IMG/VR virus record: IMGVR_UViG_3300026097_000128
Span: 1-20,894 of that record
Source of the DNA: a virus
Reading direction: 5' to 3' (one strand)
DNA length: 20,894 nucleotides
Shown: one piece after another, positions 11,781-16,391 of the stretch
Position numbering within the stretch: the stretch's first letter is position 1
Layout: each line of letters opens with the position of its first letter
Position numbers and translations under genes: made by a program
The notes under the pieces: model-generated
What the model saw: only the letters and a program-made list of their open reading frames with translations
Told to the model about the DNA's origin: nothing
Database searches by the model: none

Positions 11781-12050
11781 TTACCCCGAACGTCCGTATT
11801 TGCCGCCCTTTGTGGCGGCCCCCATGCCCCGGCAGCTGCCGCCGCCGGCCATCTTCTTCATAGGCTTCTTGTCCATCTTGCCGCCCGACATCTTCTTCAT
11901 GGGCTTCTTGGCTTTCTCCTCCATCGCAGCCTGCTTGGCGCGGCGCTTGGCGTCGTTGTTACCCCGCTTCACGGCTTGACCGTCCATGTAGTCTTGGGCC
12001 TTTTTCGGATCGCGAGCCTTGGGGCGCTTGGATTTCGTAGGTGCTGCCAT
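11781..12050 (-). CDS. Small Lys-rich repeat protein, KKPMKKM type
   Basis: An 89-residue very basic protein, MAAPTKSKRPKARDPKKAQD. Residues about 48-73 hold a 13-residue repeat, KKPMKKMSGGKMD / KKPMKKMAGGGSC, and the end is RGMGAATKGGKYGRSG, an ending I have seen on short proteins of uncultured marine phages. GGAG lies 6 bases before the ATG. The KKM...GG theme also makes up the 46-residue protein at 13283-13423. The charge suggests binding to DNA or to the acidic inner capsid surface. No function is known to me. Confidence 0.62.
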   Translation of the reverse strand: MAAPTKSKRPKARDPKKAQDYMDGQAVKRGNNDAKRRAKQAAMEEKAKKPMKKMSGGKMDKKPMKKMAGGGSCRGMGAATKGGKYGRSG

Positions 12051-12051
12051 G

Positions 12052-12369
12052 TCAATCTCCTGTGCTGACAGTTACGGCCCCGACGGAGCCTTCAAGGTAG
12101 ACCAGAGGGTTACCCACAGGTCTCCAGCCGAACAGCGCCCGGCTCTCGTCGATCGAGTTGTCAGGACGCGGGTTGCGGAGCGACTGCGGATCAACGACTC
12201 GCACGCGCCCCAGAAAGTTCTGAGGGTGGTCCGGATCGACCACGTCCTTGCCAACACGGAACCCCGTGCGGTGCCCGTCCTTGTATTCCCACACAAGGTC
12301 TTTGAGTGGGTAGCGAAACCCAGTCTTGTCGCAGTATCCGTAGGCGTGCTTTCCGGGGGCGTAAGCCAT
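12052..12369 (-). CDS. Conserved small structural protein
   Basis: A 105-residue protein, MAYAPGKHAYGYCDKTGFRY, then PLKDLVWEYKDGHRTGFRV and DVVDPDHPQNFLGRVRV. The YGYCDKTGFRYPLKDL start with a lone Cys and a basic turn is typical of a small family next to the gp4-like adaptor in marine podoviruses. There are not enough Cys residues for a zinc finger. Its start shares bases with the stop of the adaptor gene (TGATG at 12369). It is likely a connector or tail component; the role is inferred from position. Confidence 0.58.
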   Translation of the reverse strand: MAYAPGKHAYGYCDKTGFRYPLKDLVWEYKDGHRTGFRVGKDVVDPDHPQNFLGRVRVVDPQSLRNPRPDNSIDESRALFGWRPVGNPLVYLEGSVGAVTVSTGD

Positions 12370-13034
12370 CAGTAGCGCCTCCCGGGTGTCAGATGCAGCG
12401 AGGCGCGCTCGCGATCCTCCGCGGCGGCCAGATCGAACTGCTGCTCGTATTCCTGCTTGAGAGCGACGGCGCGATCGGCCGACTCTGGCTTTTTCATGGC
12501 AATCTGAAACGCCAGACCCGCCACGAGGGCGGGGACGAAGCGGGGCGGTATAGACGCGCTACCCGAGATGCCCGATGTCATCCCGTCGATGCCCTTGAGG
12601 CGGTAGTAGAAAAGCGTGTAGTCGCCGGAGTCAGGCACCGGCCAAAGCGTGGCTGTCACATCGCTCACACCCCGGTTGATGTAAATCTGAGTCGGGCGGC
12701 CCCGGGAGTTCTTGTTCGTCTGCTGAGCGTATGTCGAGACGCTGACCCGCATCAGCGCGGTGTCTATCTGGTTTGTCCCAGTCCCTGTTCGCAGCTGGTG
12801 CTCGATCAGGTCGATCGTATCCGACGGCATGGTGTATCCGGCAGTGCCTTCCACCAGAGGCACGGTTCCGGCCTCAATGGTGAACAAGTTCAAGCCGCGG
12901 TTCTGCCACTCCAACGTCAGGAAATTCAGACTGCGTCGCACCGTGCGCAGGTCGTAGCCCGTGCGCATCTCGAGCCCTGCCCGCTCGAAGGCCTCCTCGA
13001 AGAGCTCTGAAAGATCAGGGGTCACGACTGCCAT
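12369..13034 (-). CDS. Head-tail adaptor, P22 gp4-like
   Basis: A 221-residue protein. The N-terminal helices (LSELFEEAFERAGLEMRTGY, then LRTVRRSLNFLTLEWQNRGL, with NLFTIE) match the layout of P22-type tail accessory factor gp4, which binds under the portal ring and closes the packaged head. A beta segment (GTAGYTMPSDTIDLIE) and a C-terminal helix pair (RFVPALVAGLAFQIAMKKPE) follow. AGGAAG precedes the ATG at 13034. Gene order (portal, scaffold, coat, gp4-like) is as in P22, apart from inserted small genes. Confidence 0.7.
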   Translation of the reverse strand: MAVVTPDLSELFEEAFERAGLEMRTGYDLRTVRRSLNFLTLEWQNRGLNLFTIEAGTVPLVEGTAGYTMPSDTIDLIEHQLRTGTGTNQIDTALMRVSVSTYAQQTNKNSRGRPTQIYINRGVSDVTATLWPVPDSGDYTLFYYRLKGIDGMTSGISGSASIPPRFVPALVAGLAFQIAMKKPESADRAVALKQEYEQQFDLAAAEDRERASLHLTPGRRY

Positions 13035-13037
13035 GGT

Positions 13038-13286
13038 TTACTTCCTGCTTTTCGCCGTCTTCTTGGCGATCTTCTTGGGTTGTGCCACATGTTGCTTGCC
13101 CTTGCGAGTCCCTTTGCGTTTGGCTCGAGTTGTGGCAGCGTATTCAGAGTCGCTCAGAGACTTGATCGTCTTTTCCGGGAGATATCGTTCCCCGGTGGCC
13201 GTGGGACCTTGAGTGGACGGCTTGCCGCTTTTTGTGCGCCATTTCTGGGCCGTCCACTTCTTTAGGCTCTTCTGAGGCTTCTTCAC
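13038..13286 (-). CDS. Small basic protein, KWRTKSGKPS ... GERYLPEK family
   Basis: An 82-residue, very basic protein, MKKPQKSLKKWTAQKWRTKS, then GERYLPEKTIKSLSDSEYAA, and a Lys/Arg-rich end (KGTRKGKQHVAQPKKIAKKT). I recognise this pattern from short proteins of marine phages and of large eukaryotic algal viruses; I believe the family is DUF5872, but the name is from memory. It starts in an ATGA overlap with the 46-residue repeat protein. Nucleic-acid binding or virion packing is possible from charge; no function is established that I know of. Confidence 0.68.
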   Translation of the reverse strand: MKKPQKSLKKWTAQKWRTKSGKPSTQGPTATGERYLPEKTIKSLSDSEYAATTRAKRKGTRKGKQHVAQPKKIAKKTAKSRK

Positions 13287-13423
13287 TTCTTCGCCTTGGT
13301 TTTTCCGCCACGCATCATCTTCTTTGGGTTGCCACCGCGCATCATCTTCTTGGCGTCACCGCCGCGCATCATCTTCTTCGCGGTGCCCTTTTTTGCCGTC
13401 ATCTTACGGGGTTTCATAGCCAT
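13283..13423 (-). CDS. 46-residue KKMMRGG repeat protein
   Basis: A very small gene with ATG at 13423-13421 and TGA at 13285-13283. It encodes a 46-residue protein with three tandem 9-residue units, AKKMMRGGD / AKKMMRGGN / PKKMMRGGK, between a basic head (MAMKPRKMTAKKGT) and tail (KTKAKK). It overlaps the end of the previous gene by 20 bases and the next start by 4 (ATGA). That tight coupling and the shared KKM..GG theme with the protein at 11781-12050 make it a real gene rather than chance. Almost only Lys, Met, Gly, Arg and Ala are used. Function unknown; a DNA- or capsid-binding peptide is a guess. Confidence 0.65.
   Translation of the reverse strand: MAMKPRKMTAKKGTAKKMMRGGDAKKMMRGGNPKKMMRGGKTKAKK
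13306..13386 (-). repeat. Three tandem 27-base coding repeats
   Basis: The plus strand shows three copies of a unit with core CGCATCATCTTCTT followed by a GCCACCGC-like or TCACCGCC-like piece. They encode the KKMMRGG units of the small gene at 13283-13423. Coordinates are approximate. Confidence 0.75.
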
Positions 13424-13931
13424 CTGTCAGTCTCCGTTTGCGGTTTGCGACGAGAGCTTCATACTCGTCATGGGGGTAGACGTCATAATAGCCCAAAGGA
13501 TGCAACTTGTCACTCGCGGCCACAACTTGGTCTAACGATTGCACAAACAGCATCGCGTAGTCGCCGTCGACCTCGCTCTCCCAGTTATTGTCTGTCAGAA
13601 AATCAAGGCCAGCGTCGTCCGCGCCGTAGTCTGGGTGAAAGGTCATGCAATGGAGCGCAGGGAACCGTTTGTTGAGCTCTTCAGACAACTCATGTAAATC
13701 CTCGGGCTCGGGGAGATCGAAGGTGGCAATAATGACGAGCTCCTTGCCGAGCTGCTCAAAATCCTCGCAGTGTTTGACGGAATCGGCGAAGATATCTGGC
13801 GTTTCGACCACGAGCACTACGTTGTCACGCCACGCCCTTGCCGCGTATGGACAAGGCGGTAGACCTTTGAGGTGTTCGCTGGGAACCTCAAGAACCTCAC
13901 GTGACCAGCTGCGCAGATCACGCTCGATCAT
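13404..13931 (-). CDS. Cytoplasmic enzyme-like protein with CPYA motif
   Basis: A 175-residue protein. The start at 13931 (MIERDLRSWSREVLEVPSEH) is chosen because its ATGA overlaps the stop of the previous gene. The motif GLPPCPYAARAW (Cys27) followed by alternating beta strands and helices (VVLVVETPDIF, LVIIATFDLPEPEDLHELSE, MTFHPDYG, YAMLFVQSLDQVV) gives an alpha/beta fold unlike a virion protein. The CPYA box recalls the NLCPFA box of DUF1415-type proteins, a distant similarity by eye. It is acidic, against strongly basic neighbours. The family is recurrent in marine phages but I know no function. It may act in the infected cell rather than in the virion. Confidence 0.6.
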   Translation of the reverse strand: MIERDLRSWSREVLEVPSEHLKGLPPCPYAARAWRDNVVLVVETPDIFADSVKHCEDFEQLGKELVIIATFDLPEPEDLHELSEELNKRFPALHCMTFHPDYGADDAGLDFLTDNNWESEVDGDYAMLFVQSLDQVVAASDKLHPLGYYDVYPHDEYEALVANRKRRLTDGYETP

Positions 13932-14116
13932 GACTTGTACCCTCCGCCCTTGGCCTTGTACTGCTTGGCCAACATCTGCGCCTTGCGTGCGCTCCATTGG
14001 CCCGGCTTCCCACCCTTGCCGCCAGCCTTGATGCTGTTGAACAGGGATTTGCGCATGCTGGGCTTGGTGTAGTTTCCCGACTCATTGACGCGTGACTTGG
14101 TCGGTTTTTTGGCCAT
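13928..14116 (-). CDS. Small basic protein, KPGQWSARKAQ family
   Basis: A 62-residue basic protein, MAKKPTKSRVNESGNYTKPS, then MRKSLFNSIKAGGKGGKPGQ and WSARKAQMLAKQYKAKGGGY. The GGKPGQWSARKAQ(L/M)xxKxYKxxGGGY pattern recurs in many cyanophages and marine phages. It is coupled at both ends (TGATG at 14116-14118, ATGA at 13928-13931). Function unknown to me; high charge suggests nucleic acid or capsid contact. Confidence 0.68.
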   Translation of the reverse strand: MAKKPTKSRVNESGNYTKPSMRKSLFNSIKAGGKGGKPGQWSARKAQMLAKQYKAKGGGYKS

Positions 14117-14403
14117 CAGGTCACCTTCCCCTTCGTGCGCCCTTTCATGCAGATGCCGTCGCCACGACCCATGCGGCCGCCGGCCGCCGCCCGCTTGACA
14201 GATTTCTGCCCGCTGCAGCCCCATGCCTTGCGGCGAGCTTTGACCTTCGGAGTGCGCTTCTGACTCACTGTGCGGGCACAATAGGCGTCCCCGCGAGGCG
14301 TACCGGGCGATGAGACCCGGCGATGCTTCTTGCCCTTGCTGTCCTTGTAAGTGGTGCCGTCAGCGTACTTCTCGTCGGCCGGCCGATCGTCTTTTTTGGC
14401 CAT
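14116..14403 (-). CDS. Small basic Cys-containing phage protein
   Basis: A 95-residue, very basic protein, MAKKDDRPADEKYADGTTYK, then SSPGTPRGDAYCARTVSQ, RRKAWGCSGQKSVKR and GRMGRGDGICMKGRTKGKV. Three Cys residues lie within short conserved boxes (DAYCAR, WGCSG, DGICMKG). The GDxYCARS...KAWGC pair is a motif of a small phage family, DUF6321 if I recall rightly. Three Cys could bind metal with another ligand or oligomer; this is speculation. It starts 2 bases after the membrane protein's stop. Confidence 0.62.
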   Translation of the reverse strand: MAKKDDRPADEKYADGTTYKDSKGKKHRRVSSPGTPRGDAYCARTVSQKRTPKVKARRKAWGCSGQKSVKRAAAGGRMGRGDGICMKGRTKGKVT

Positions 14404-15434: not shown

Positions 15435-15466
15435 CAAAAAGAAAGGGCGGCCCGAAGACCGCCCTC
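15435..15466 (-). terminator. Rho-independent terminator after the major capsid gene
   Basis: In the minus-strand RNA a 9-pair stem (AGGGCGGUC with GGCCGCCCU, one G-U pair, 15444-15465) closes a UUCG tetraloop and is followed by a U-rich tract (UUCUUUUUG, 15435-15443). This is 20 bases after the capsid stop. It likely ends or attenuates the head-gene transcript and may stabilise its 3' end. Confidence 0.9.
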
Positions 15467-15485
15467 CTGAATCACTGTCCCGTGA

Positions 15486-16391
15486 TTATGCGCCCGGCGA
15501 GCCGAACATGGCCAGCGGATCGGACACCCCGAACGAATAACGCTCGCGTGCCTTGTAGCGCACGTTACCAGTGTCGAAGTCGCCGTCCATCGAGGTCGAC
15601 ATCGGCGTACGCACGAAGTGCTTGTAGCCGTTCGGCACGTCGGTGGTCAGGAACCACGCGTCGGTGTCGGTCAGGTAGTGGTTGACACGATACCCTTCAG
15701 GGATCGAGCCGTTGCTGCGCAGCGCGTTCAGGTCGTTGTCCGCGGTGCCAACACGCAGCTCGGTCTGCAGGAGACGCGTAGCGACGAACATCAGCGACGG
15801 GGGAACGATCAGCTTGCGGGGCTGAGCTGCGATCAGGAGGCCCCGCTCATCGACGTAGGCGGCGATATCAATCACAGCCTGCTCGAGCGAGGTCTCGTTG
15901 AGGTCCGAGTCAACCGCCGGACGGTTCCGGTTCGTCACACCTTCCACAGTGGGATGCGATGCGTTGAACAGGGTCACACCATCACCGCCGGTGAACGTGT
16001 CAAAGCCGGTGTTCAGCAGCGAGGCTGCCTTGACCTGCTTCGTGTAGGCCATGGCGCGAGCCAGTGCCTTGGTGTAACGGGCCGACAGAGAGTCGTACAG
16101 GTTATCTTCCATCGCCTCTTCGGTGATGGAGAAGCCCATAGCGACGGTCTCGTGGTTGTAGCGAGCCGTGAACGCCTCTTGTGCGTTGTCGTACGAGATC
16201 GACGAACCCTCGGCCTTGACCGGTGCAGCACCGAAGCCCGACAGTTTGACTTCCTCTTCGAAGGAGCGCTCCGAAGTTTCAGTCTCGTAGATTTCCGCAT
16301 GCTCGTTCTCGTACTTGTCGTACTCGAGGCCGAACAGAGCGTTAAGGCCCGGAAGCAGCTCTTTGAGAAGCTGGGAGCGTGAAATAGCCAT
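15486..16391 (-). CDS. Major capsid protein, Mu gpT-like (HK97 fold)
   Basis: A 301-residue protein, MAISRSQLLKELLPGLNALF, with an acidic N-arm (YDKYENEHAEIYETETSERS) followed by the E-loop region (SYDNAQEAFTARYNHETVAM, GFSITEEAMEDNLYDSL). The P-domain and A-domain part contains LFNASHPTVEG, LIVPPSLMFVATRLLQTELR and YFVRTPM-like strands, and the end is YSFGVSDPLAMFGSPGA. The FSITEEAMEDN...LFNASHP...LIVPP pattern is that of the Mu gpT-like major head subunit family, an HK97-fold coat. It assembles the procapsid on the scaffold. AAGGGAG is a strong ribosome-binding site before 16391, and a UUCG-loop terminator follows the stop, as expected for the most expressed gene. Combination with a P22-like portal is notable. 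Confidence 0.88.
   Translation of the reverse strand: MAISRSQLLKELLPGLNALFGLEYDKYENEHAEIYETETSERSFEEEVKLSGFGAAPVKAEGSSISYDNAQEAFTARYNHETVAMGFSITEEAMEDNLYDSLSARYTKALARAMAYTKQVKAASLLNTGFDTFTGGDGVTLFNASHPTVEGVTNRNRPAVDSDLNETSLEQAVIDIAAYVDERGLLIAAQPRKLIVPPSLMFVATRLLQTELRVGTADNDLNALRSNGSIPEGYRVNHYLTDTDAWFLTTDVPNGYKHFVRTPMSTSMDGDFDTGNVRYKARERYSFGVSDPLAMFGSPGA

Follow-up and report, generated by a model that had tools for sequence, protein, structure and literature searches.

A small polycationic peptide gene paired almost one-to-one with the gene of an acidic protein of a putative enzyme superfamily in marine phages

In marine phages, the gene of a small polycationic peptide occurs almost one-to-one with the gene directly upstream of it, which encodes an acidic protein, here called U175, that is probably an enzyme or a binding protein of the DUF1415/DUF6875 superfamily, judging by its remote profile similarity. 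The peptide gene was studied in the window, whose 20,894 bases make up a complete virus record, and in relatives, where its ORF is a genuine gene under amino-acid-level selection. The pairing suggests that marine phages have a hitherto undescribed unit of two proteins, the novelty of which would lie in a polycationic viral peptide that is apparently tied genetically to a single partner from a putative enzyme superfamily. In the main reading, to which a probability of about 0.45 is given, the peptide would be a dedicated, translationally coupled polycationic partner that tethers U175 to nucleic acid.

The peptide gene and its neighbours

The peptide ORF occupies positions 13283-13423 on the minus strand, a strand that the earlier note, written from the letters of the window, had not named. 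Its translation, MAMKPRKMTAKKGTAKKMMRGGDAKKMMRGGNPKKMMRGGKTKAKK*, bears out the description given there of a 46-residue gene with three 9-residue units (TAKKMMRGG, DAKKMMRGG and NPKKMMRGG, or xxKKMMRGG), which stand between the head MAMKPRKM and the tail KTKAKK. The few amino acids mentioned in the same place amount, on counting, to nine kinds (K14 M9 G7 A5 R4 T3 P2 D1 N1), with a net charge of +17, and the combined fraction of K, M, R and G (0.74) is the highest among the 192 ORFs of at least 40 residues in the window, the runner-up reaching 0.55. With three RGG tripeptides, the 46-mer has the repeated motif of RGG-box nucleic-acid-binding peptides. At the DNA level, the ORF contains a repeat with a period of 27, 2.7 copies and 86% matches, whose units differ at synonymous sites (Arg as CGC/CGC/CGT; Gly-Gly as GGC GGT / GGT GGC / GGC GGA), indicating that the repeat is kept at the protein level. 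Neither Pfam nor PHROGs offered a family for the peptide at E <=1, and the strings KKMMRGG, MKPRAMKK and KKMRGGG were not found in the literature searched.

Both of the overlaps announced for this gene were measured in the sequence, namely 20 bases shared with U175 (13404-13423) and 4 bases between the peptide stop and the downstream GTG start (13283-13286, GTGA). By sequence reading, a Shine-Dalgarno-like GGAG (13421-13436, minus strand, spacing of 8 bases) precedes the peptide ATG in the neighbourhood of the U175 3' end. The U175 gene itself (13404-13931, minus strand, 175 residues) matches phrog_28122, a family of unknown function, at E 1.6e-27; its start was set at the ATG at 13931, from which the relatives align, while the mechanical ORF reaches 13997. 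Directly downstream of the peptide lies KWT (13038-13286, minus strand; phrog_14910, E 2e-34), an 82-residue basic gene with a GTG start that served as a control gene. It is extremely conserved (mean column identity of 82% in 48 sequences) and common (at least 599 stretches in the scan), and its structural model (pLDDT 90.5) found no PDB match in a fold search. The second control gene, an SU10-type adaptor (12369-13034, minus strand; PF24175, E 1.2e-15), follows downstream and places the cluster beside virion-structure genes.

According to the ORF list and the sequence, a second K/M/GG-rich protein, of 89 residues, is encoded outside the U175 pair at 11781-12050 on the minus strand. This protein and the one encoded at 14116-14403 (minus strand) are basic and carry K/M/GG-rich or RG.G.-type ends (CRGMGAATKGG..., RGDGICMKGRTKG...), and in the fetched loci, proteins that otherwise differ bear very similar C-terminal ends, as though these formed a common tail. 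A strong terminator-like stem of 11 pairs followed by a T-rich stretch is present at 15442-15467 (minus strand), just after the ORF ending at 15486 and upstream of the cluster of small basic genes. The promoter scan returned two weak matches against 1.1 expected and was not used.

Selection on the peptide sequence

IMG/VR supplied the relatives of U175, KWT and the adaptor. Once duplicates had been removed, the U175 set comprised 82 rows, 75 of them with the peptide, which was represented by 58 distinct sequences. Across 16 independent gapless peptide pairs, the substitutions at codon positions 1, 2 and 3 numbered 25, 16 and 129, and 110 of the 141 codon changes were synonymous against 31 non-synonymous ones, while a synonymous share of 19-22% would be expected without selection; this excess indicates purifying selection on the amino-acid sequence. 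The full set of 45 gapless pairs, which are mutually dependent, gave 164, 121 and 527 substitutions at the three positions, with 396 synonymous and 185 non-synonymous changes. The shortness and repetitiveness of the ORF might recommend the idea of a chance frame in low-complexity DNA, but the strong synonymous excess and the conservation of both the head and the position speak against it; barring wrong alignments, this idea is refuted by the selection test and its probability is practically negligible.

Pairing with U175

The pairing rule asked for a peptide start within -130 to +60 of the end of an anchor gene; the peptide pattern was written after the peptides had been seen, and the identical rule was applied to the control genes. 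From 107 U175 loci, 16 that were duplicates or had less than 250 nt downstream were set aside (among them L219, a contig ending at U175). The peptide was found at the U175 end in 85 of the remaining 91 unique loci, compared with 2 of 181 KWT loci and 0 of 116 adaptor loci. Stop codons or loss of frame in relatives, named in the earlier note as evidence that would count against a gene, were looked for in this set and none was seen, the ORF being intact in all 85 loci. A scan of DNA for the head alone yielded at least 80 loci, and 79 of the 80 among the matches listed had U175 within 700 nt upstream, the remaining one having only 2 nt of contig before the peptide; these loci lie partly on the same contigs as those found through U175, so the two pairing tests are not fully independent.

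The earlier note had also expected the same slot to be kept in relatives. An open frame is indeed kept, but the peptide belongs to the upstream U175 rather than to the slot, and the hypothesis that it is tied to the downstream KWT was dropped on the counts given above. KWT is thus not specifically linked to the peptide: no AMKPR ORF was found in the 1200 nt before KWT in any of the 96 unique KWT loci that lack U175, where, among the matches listed, this place is often held by a 65-residue gene of the phrog_17747 type. In the cultured phages HMO-2011 and CRP-345, KWT lies 1.6-4 kb off and the peptide is still beside U175.

Six U175 loci have no peptide that fits the rule (L197, L210, L214, L246, L095 and L004), the gene being lacking, replaced or relocated. 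An acidic ORF of 59-61 residues follows U175 in L197, L210 and L214 in place of such a peptide, a K/M/GG protein precedes U175 in L095, and one is found 837 nt further on in L246. At the place of the peptide, phage CRP-810 has an unannotated arginine-rich basic ORF of 69 codons. Contigs of uncultured marine phages commonly contain the pair, the U175 scan having returned at least 600 stretches, at least 598 of which encode relatives. One contig filed under a Bacteroidetes MAG (L254, 2992-3643) encodes a U175 relative (41%) together with a 56-residue K/M/R-GG peptide, and it is therefore probably a phage contig. In the Synechococcus phage S-SCSM2R (L283, 1325-2155), a U175 homologue (27%) lies next to baseplate wedge genes and is not accompanied by a K/M/GG peptide.

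Variation of the peptide among relatives

The usual peptide opens with the head MAMKPR(A/S/K)M, continues with K..M.RGG units that vary in number and closes with a lysine tail, with the MAMKPR start present in 70 of the 75 peptide rows and a lysine run at the C-terminal end of most peptides. The variable unit number that had been anticipated for relatives was observed, as the number of GG runs per peptide extends from 0 to 7 over the 75 rows (0 in 6 rows, 2 in 3, 3 in 48, 4 in 16, 5 in 1 and 7 in 1) and the length ranges from 20 to 221 residues; at six loci, a peptide of 20 residues bears the head without any GG unit. The middle of the peptide tolerates inserts, such as a helix-turn-helix-like one in L240 (HTH_3, E 3.7e-4, 20.9 bits, below the cut-off of 23) and one of about 130 residues in L015, while the peptides of L234 and L236 end in long tails rich in K/A/P/R, which by eye resemble histone H1. 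Pfam named no family in the L015 or L236 peptide. Judged from sequence, the L240 insert and the L234 and L236 tails would favour a nucleic-acid theme.

Family and predicted structure of U175

Judged by U175, the nearest cultured relatives of the window are HMO-2011, CRP-345 and CRP-810. An alignment of 50 sequences has 23 invariant columns, including C27, P28, W34, H99, P100 and Y125; Cys27 lies within PCPYA and His99-Pro100 within FHPDY. The motif CP[YF]A, with its invariant cysteine, is present in all 104 U175 homologues of at least 140 residues (duplicates included), 3 of the 107 being too short.

Profile comparison with hhalign points to U175 as a remote relative of DUF1415 (PF07209; 95.7%, E 9e-9, 131 columns), with the CPFA and FHP motifs aligned, and more weakly of DUF6875 (PF21780; 81.7%, E 1.1e-5, 98 columns, a profile of only 5 sequences), whose family cysteine is aligned with Cys27. 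The similarity to YqcI/YcgG (PF08892) was not significant (3.2%), and the unrelated KWT and adaptor profiles gave 0.3% and 0.1%, respectively. In single-sequence searches, 24 of 50 U175 members matched DUF1415 at E <=1, the best of them (L095, 21.6 bits, E 2.1e-4) lying under the curated cut-off of 26 bits, and 10 of 50 matched DUF6875 at E <=1 (best E 0.0011), under the curated cut-off of 24.5 bits. The U175 of the window itself matched no Pfam family at E <=5, and in NCBIfam and PADLOC only 1-2 of 50 members gave matches, which were weak and scattered. A search of PDB sequences, a set that includes the AglA entries, returned an unconvincing best E of 0.17 for U175 and nothing at E 1 for one DUF6875 protein. 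The AlphaFold2 model of U175 (pLDDT 87.6, pTM 0.83) has a four-stranded sheet with helices; in the fold search no PDB entry matched it at E <=0.001 or at Z >=5, AglA did not appear among the matches listed, and four viral models, none of them functionally named, matched at E <=0.001.

A possible heme and an oxidative role

The available text of PMC13307353 reports DUF6875 proteins as heme-binding oxidases, and that of PMC12866846 describes the YqcI/YcgG enzyme AglA, which has a four-stranded sheet, holds its heme by Cys44 and hydroxylates a guanidine nitrogen. The conserved cysteine of U175 could ligate heme. Two cyanobacterial genomes contain a U175 homologue (25-27% identity) clustered with a PhyH-type dioxygenase and a protein of the YqcI/YcgG type; family tests were made in Dolichospermum (PF08892, E 8.6e-34, plus the PhyH dioxygenase), and the second genome was assigned by ORF resemblance. 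These regions (L255, 1261-5459, Pfam-tested, and the like region of L256) are probably biosynthetic clusters, and that of L255 also appears by eye to encode a Rieske-like oxygenase. In the three genomes linked to L255, L256 and L257, neither DUF6875 nor the controls of that search gave a match. An annotated 2OG-Fe(II) oxygenase lies directly upstream of U175 in CRP-810 and two genes upstream of the U175 homologue in the cyanophage S-SCSM2R. Taken together, the two papers, the cyanobacterial clusters and the neighbouring 2OG-Fe(II) oxygenases make an oxidative role of U175 a fair hypothesis, no more.

Function of the pair and competing interpretations

The mean net charge of U175 is -16.9 (82 rows, range -28 to -8) and that of the peptide is +18.2 (75 rows), with +20.1 for KWT and -4.4 for the adaptor. 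These opposite charges are compatible with docking; since loci lacking the peptide have an equally acidic U175 (-20 to -26) and KWT is no less basic than the peptide, opposite charge alone proves no contact. For the partner reading, we infer that U175 and the peptide would be translated in stoichiometry from one message, with re-initiation at the overlap keeping their proportion, that the peptide would dock on the acidic U175 at least partly via charge, and that late in infection its free K/M/R-GG tail would tether U175 to a polyanion, for which DNA or RNA is the likeliest candidate. The loci with U175 and no peptide (L197, L210 and L214) and the six loci with the GG-less peptide of 20 residues are points against this reading.

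The same one-to-one pairing and conserved head, together with the repeated units in variable number, would also be expected if U175 were an oxygenase and the peptide its dedicated polypeptide substrate, with MAMKPRAMKK as the recognition part and the Arg, Lys or Met of the units oxidised or hydroxylated. The oxidases reported among the DUF6875 relatives, the more remote AglA with its cysteine-ligated heme, the Dolichospermum cluster and the 2OG-Fe(II) oxygenases near U175 in CRP-810 and S-SCSM2R lend themselves to such a role, but the heme on U175 is putative, the DUF6875 homology is remote and that to YqcI/YcgG is not significant; GG units are absent from some peptides, and the S-SCSM2R homologue has no such peptide, so that a substrate role is considered unlikely. 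Quite unlikely is its more specific form, a phage peptide-modification system in which U175 would be a small cysteine-heme oxygenase acting on a multi-core K..M.RGG precursor, recognising the MAMKPRAMKK head and modifying Arg, Lys or Met to give an oxidised polycation for use late in infection.

The peptide might instead belong to a group of several basic late proteins with which DNA is coated or neutralised, its adjacency to U175 reflecting shared regulation only. Other small basic proteins adjoin it, KWT among them, the second K/M/GG protein lies within the window, and basic DNA-associated proteins are described for chlorella virus virions in PMC3281028. The available part of that paper, however, sees no evidence for a large contribution of basic proteins to the neutralisation of phage DNA, which counts against the tethering partner as well, and near-obligate pairing with U175 and with none of the neighbours is hard to reconcile with plain condensation, which is therefore held to be improbable. 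The literature searched, including the available part of PMC8528129, yielded no virion proteome for a phage of the HMO-2011 type. Phage disruptins are envelope-active cationic lysis peptides, and a short, strongly cationic peptide invites comparison with them; every unit is, however, broken by a glycine pair, the partner is an acidic soluble protein and no lysis gene adjoins, the lysis-like ORFs recognised by eye lying at 3.2-4.2 kb, which makes an envelope-active peptide of this kind very unlikely.

If U175 does bind heme, a phage protein would be added to a new group of non-P450 heme enzymes, and if the peptide is a substrate or a tether of U175, the role of many tiny basic phage proteins would become testable with one enzyme-partner pair.

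Comparison with known systems

The pair is present in cultured phages, where its peptide half is easily missed by annotation. The earlier suspicion that the gene is likely missed in related genomes proved right for at least one of them, since in HMO-2011 (GU557055) a peptide ORF of 50 residues fills the gap between gp66 and gp65 with no annotation; in CRP-345, the peptide is annotated in shortened form as gp77, of 40 residues, within a full ORF of 47 codons, the annotated start lying 7 codons inside the ORF so that the conserved head is missing. Both represent the same gene as that of the window, namely a K/M/R-GG peptide gene that shares bases with the end of the U175 homologue, and differ from it in that the HMO-2011 copy has another head (MKGKTKMASKK) and is unannotated, and that gp77 is called from an internal start.

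The basic virion proteins of chlorella viruses described in the available text of PMC3281028 resemble the peptide in being strongly basic, viral and proposed to bind DNA, whereas the peptide comes from an unrelated virus and protein, is tied to one partner gene and is known here from genes alone. With the DUF1415 and DUF6875 families, U175 appears to share remote profile homology and an aligned conserved cysteine, and unlike them it lies below the Pfam cut-offs, is phage-encoded and is paired with a polycation. AglA, as far as described in the available text of PMC12866846, is like the predicted model of U175 in its four-stranded sheet flanked by helices and in its N-terminal cysteine; it differs in showing no significant profile similarity and in that its heme and activity are known, whereas those of U175 are putative.
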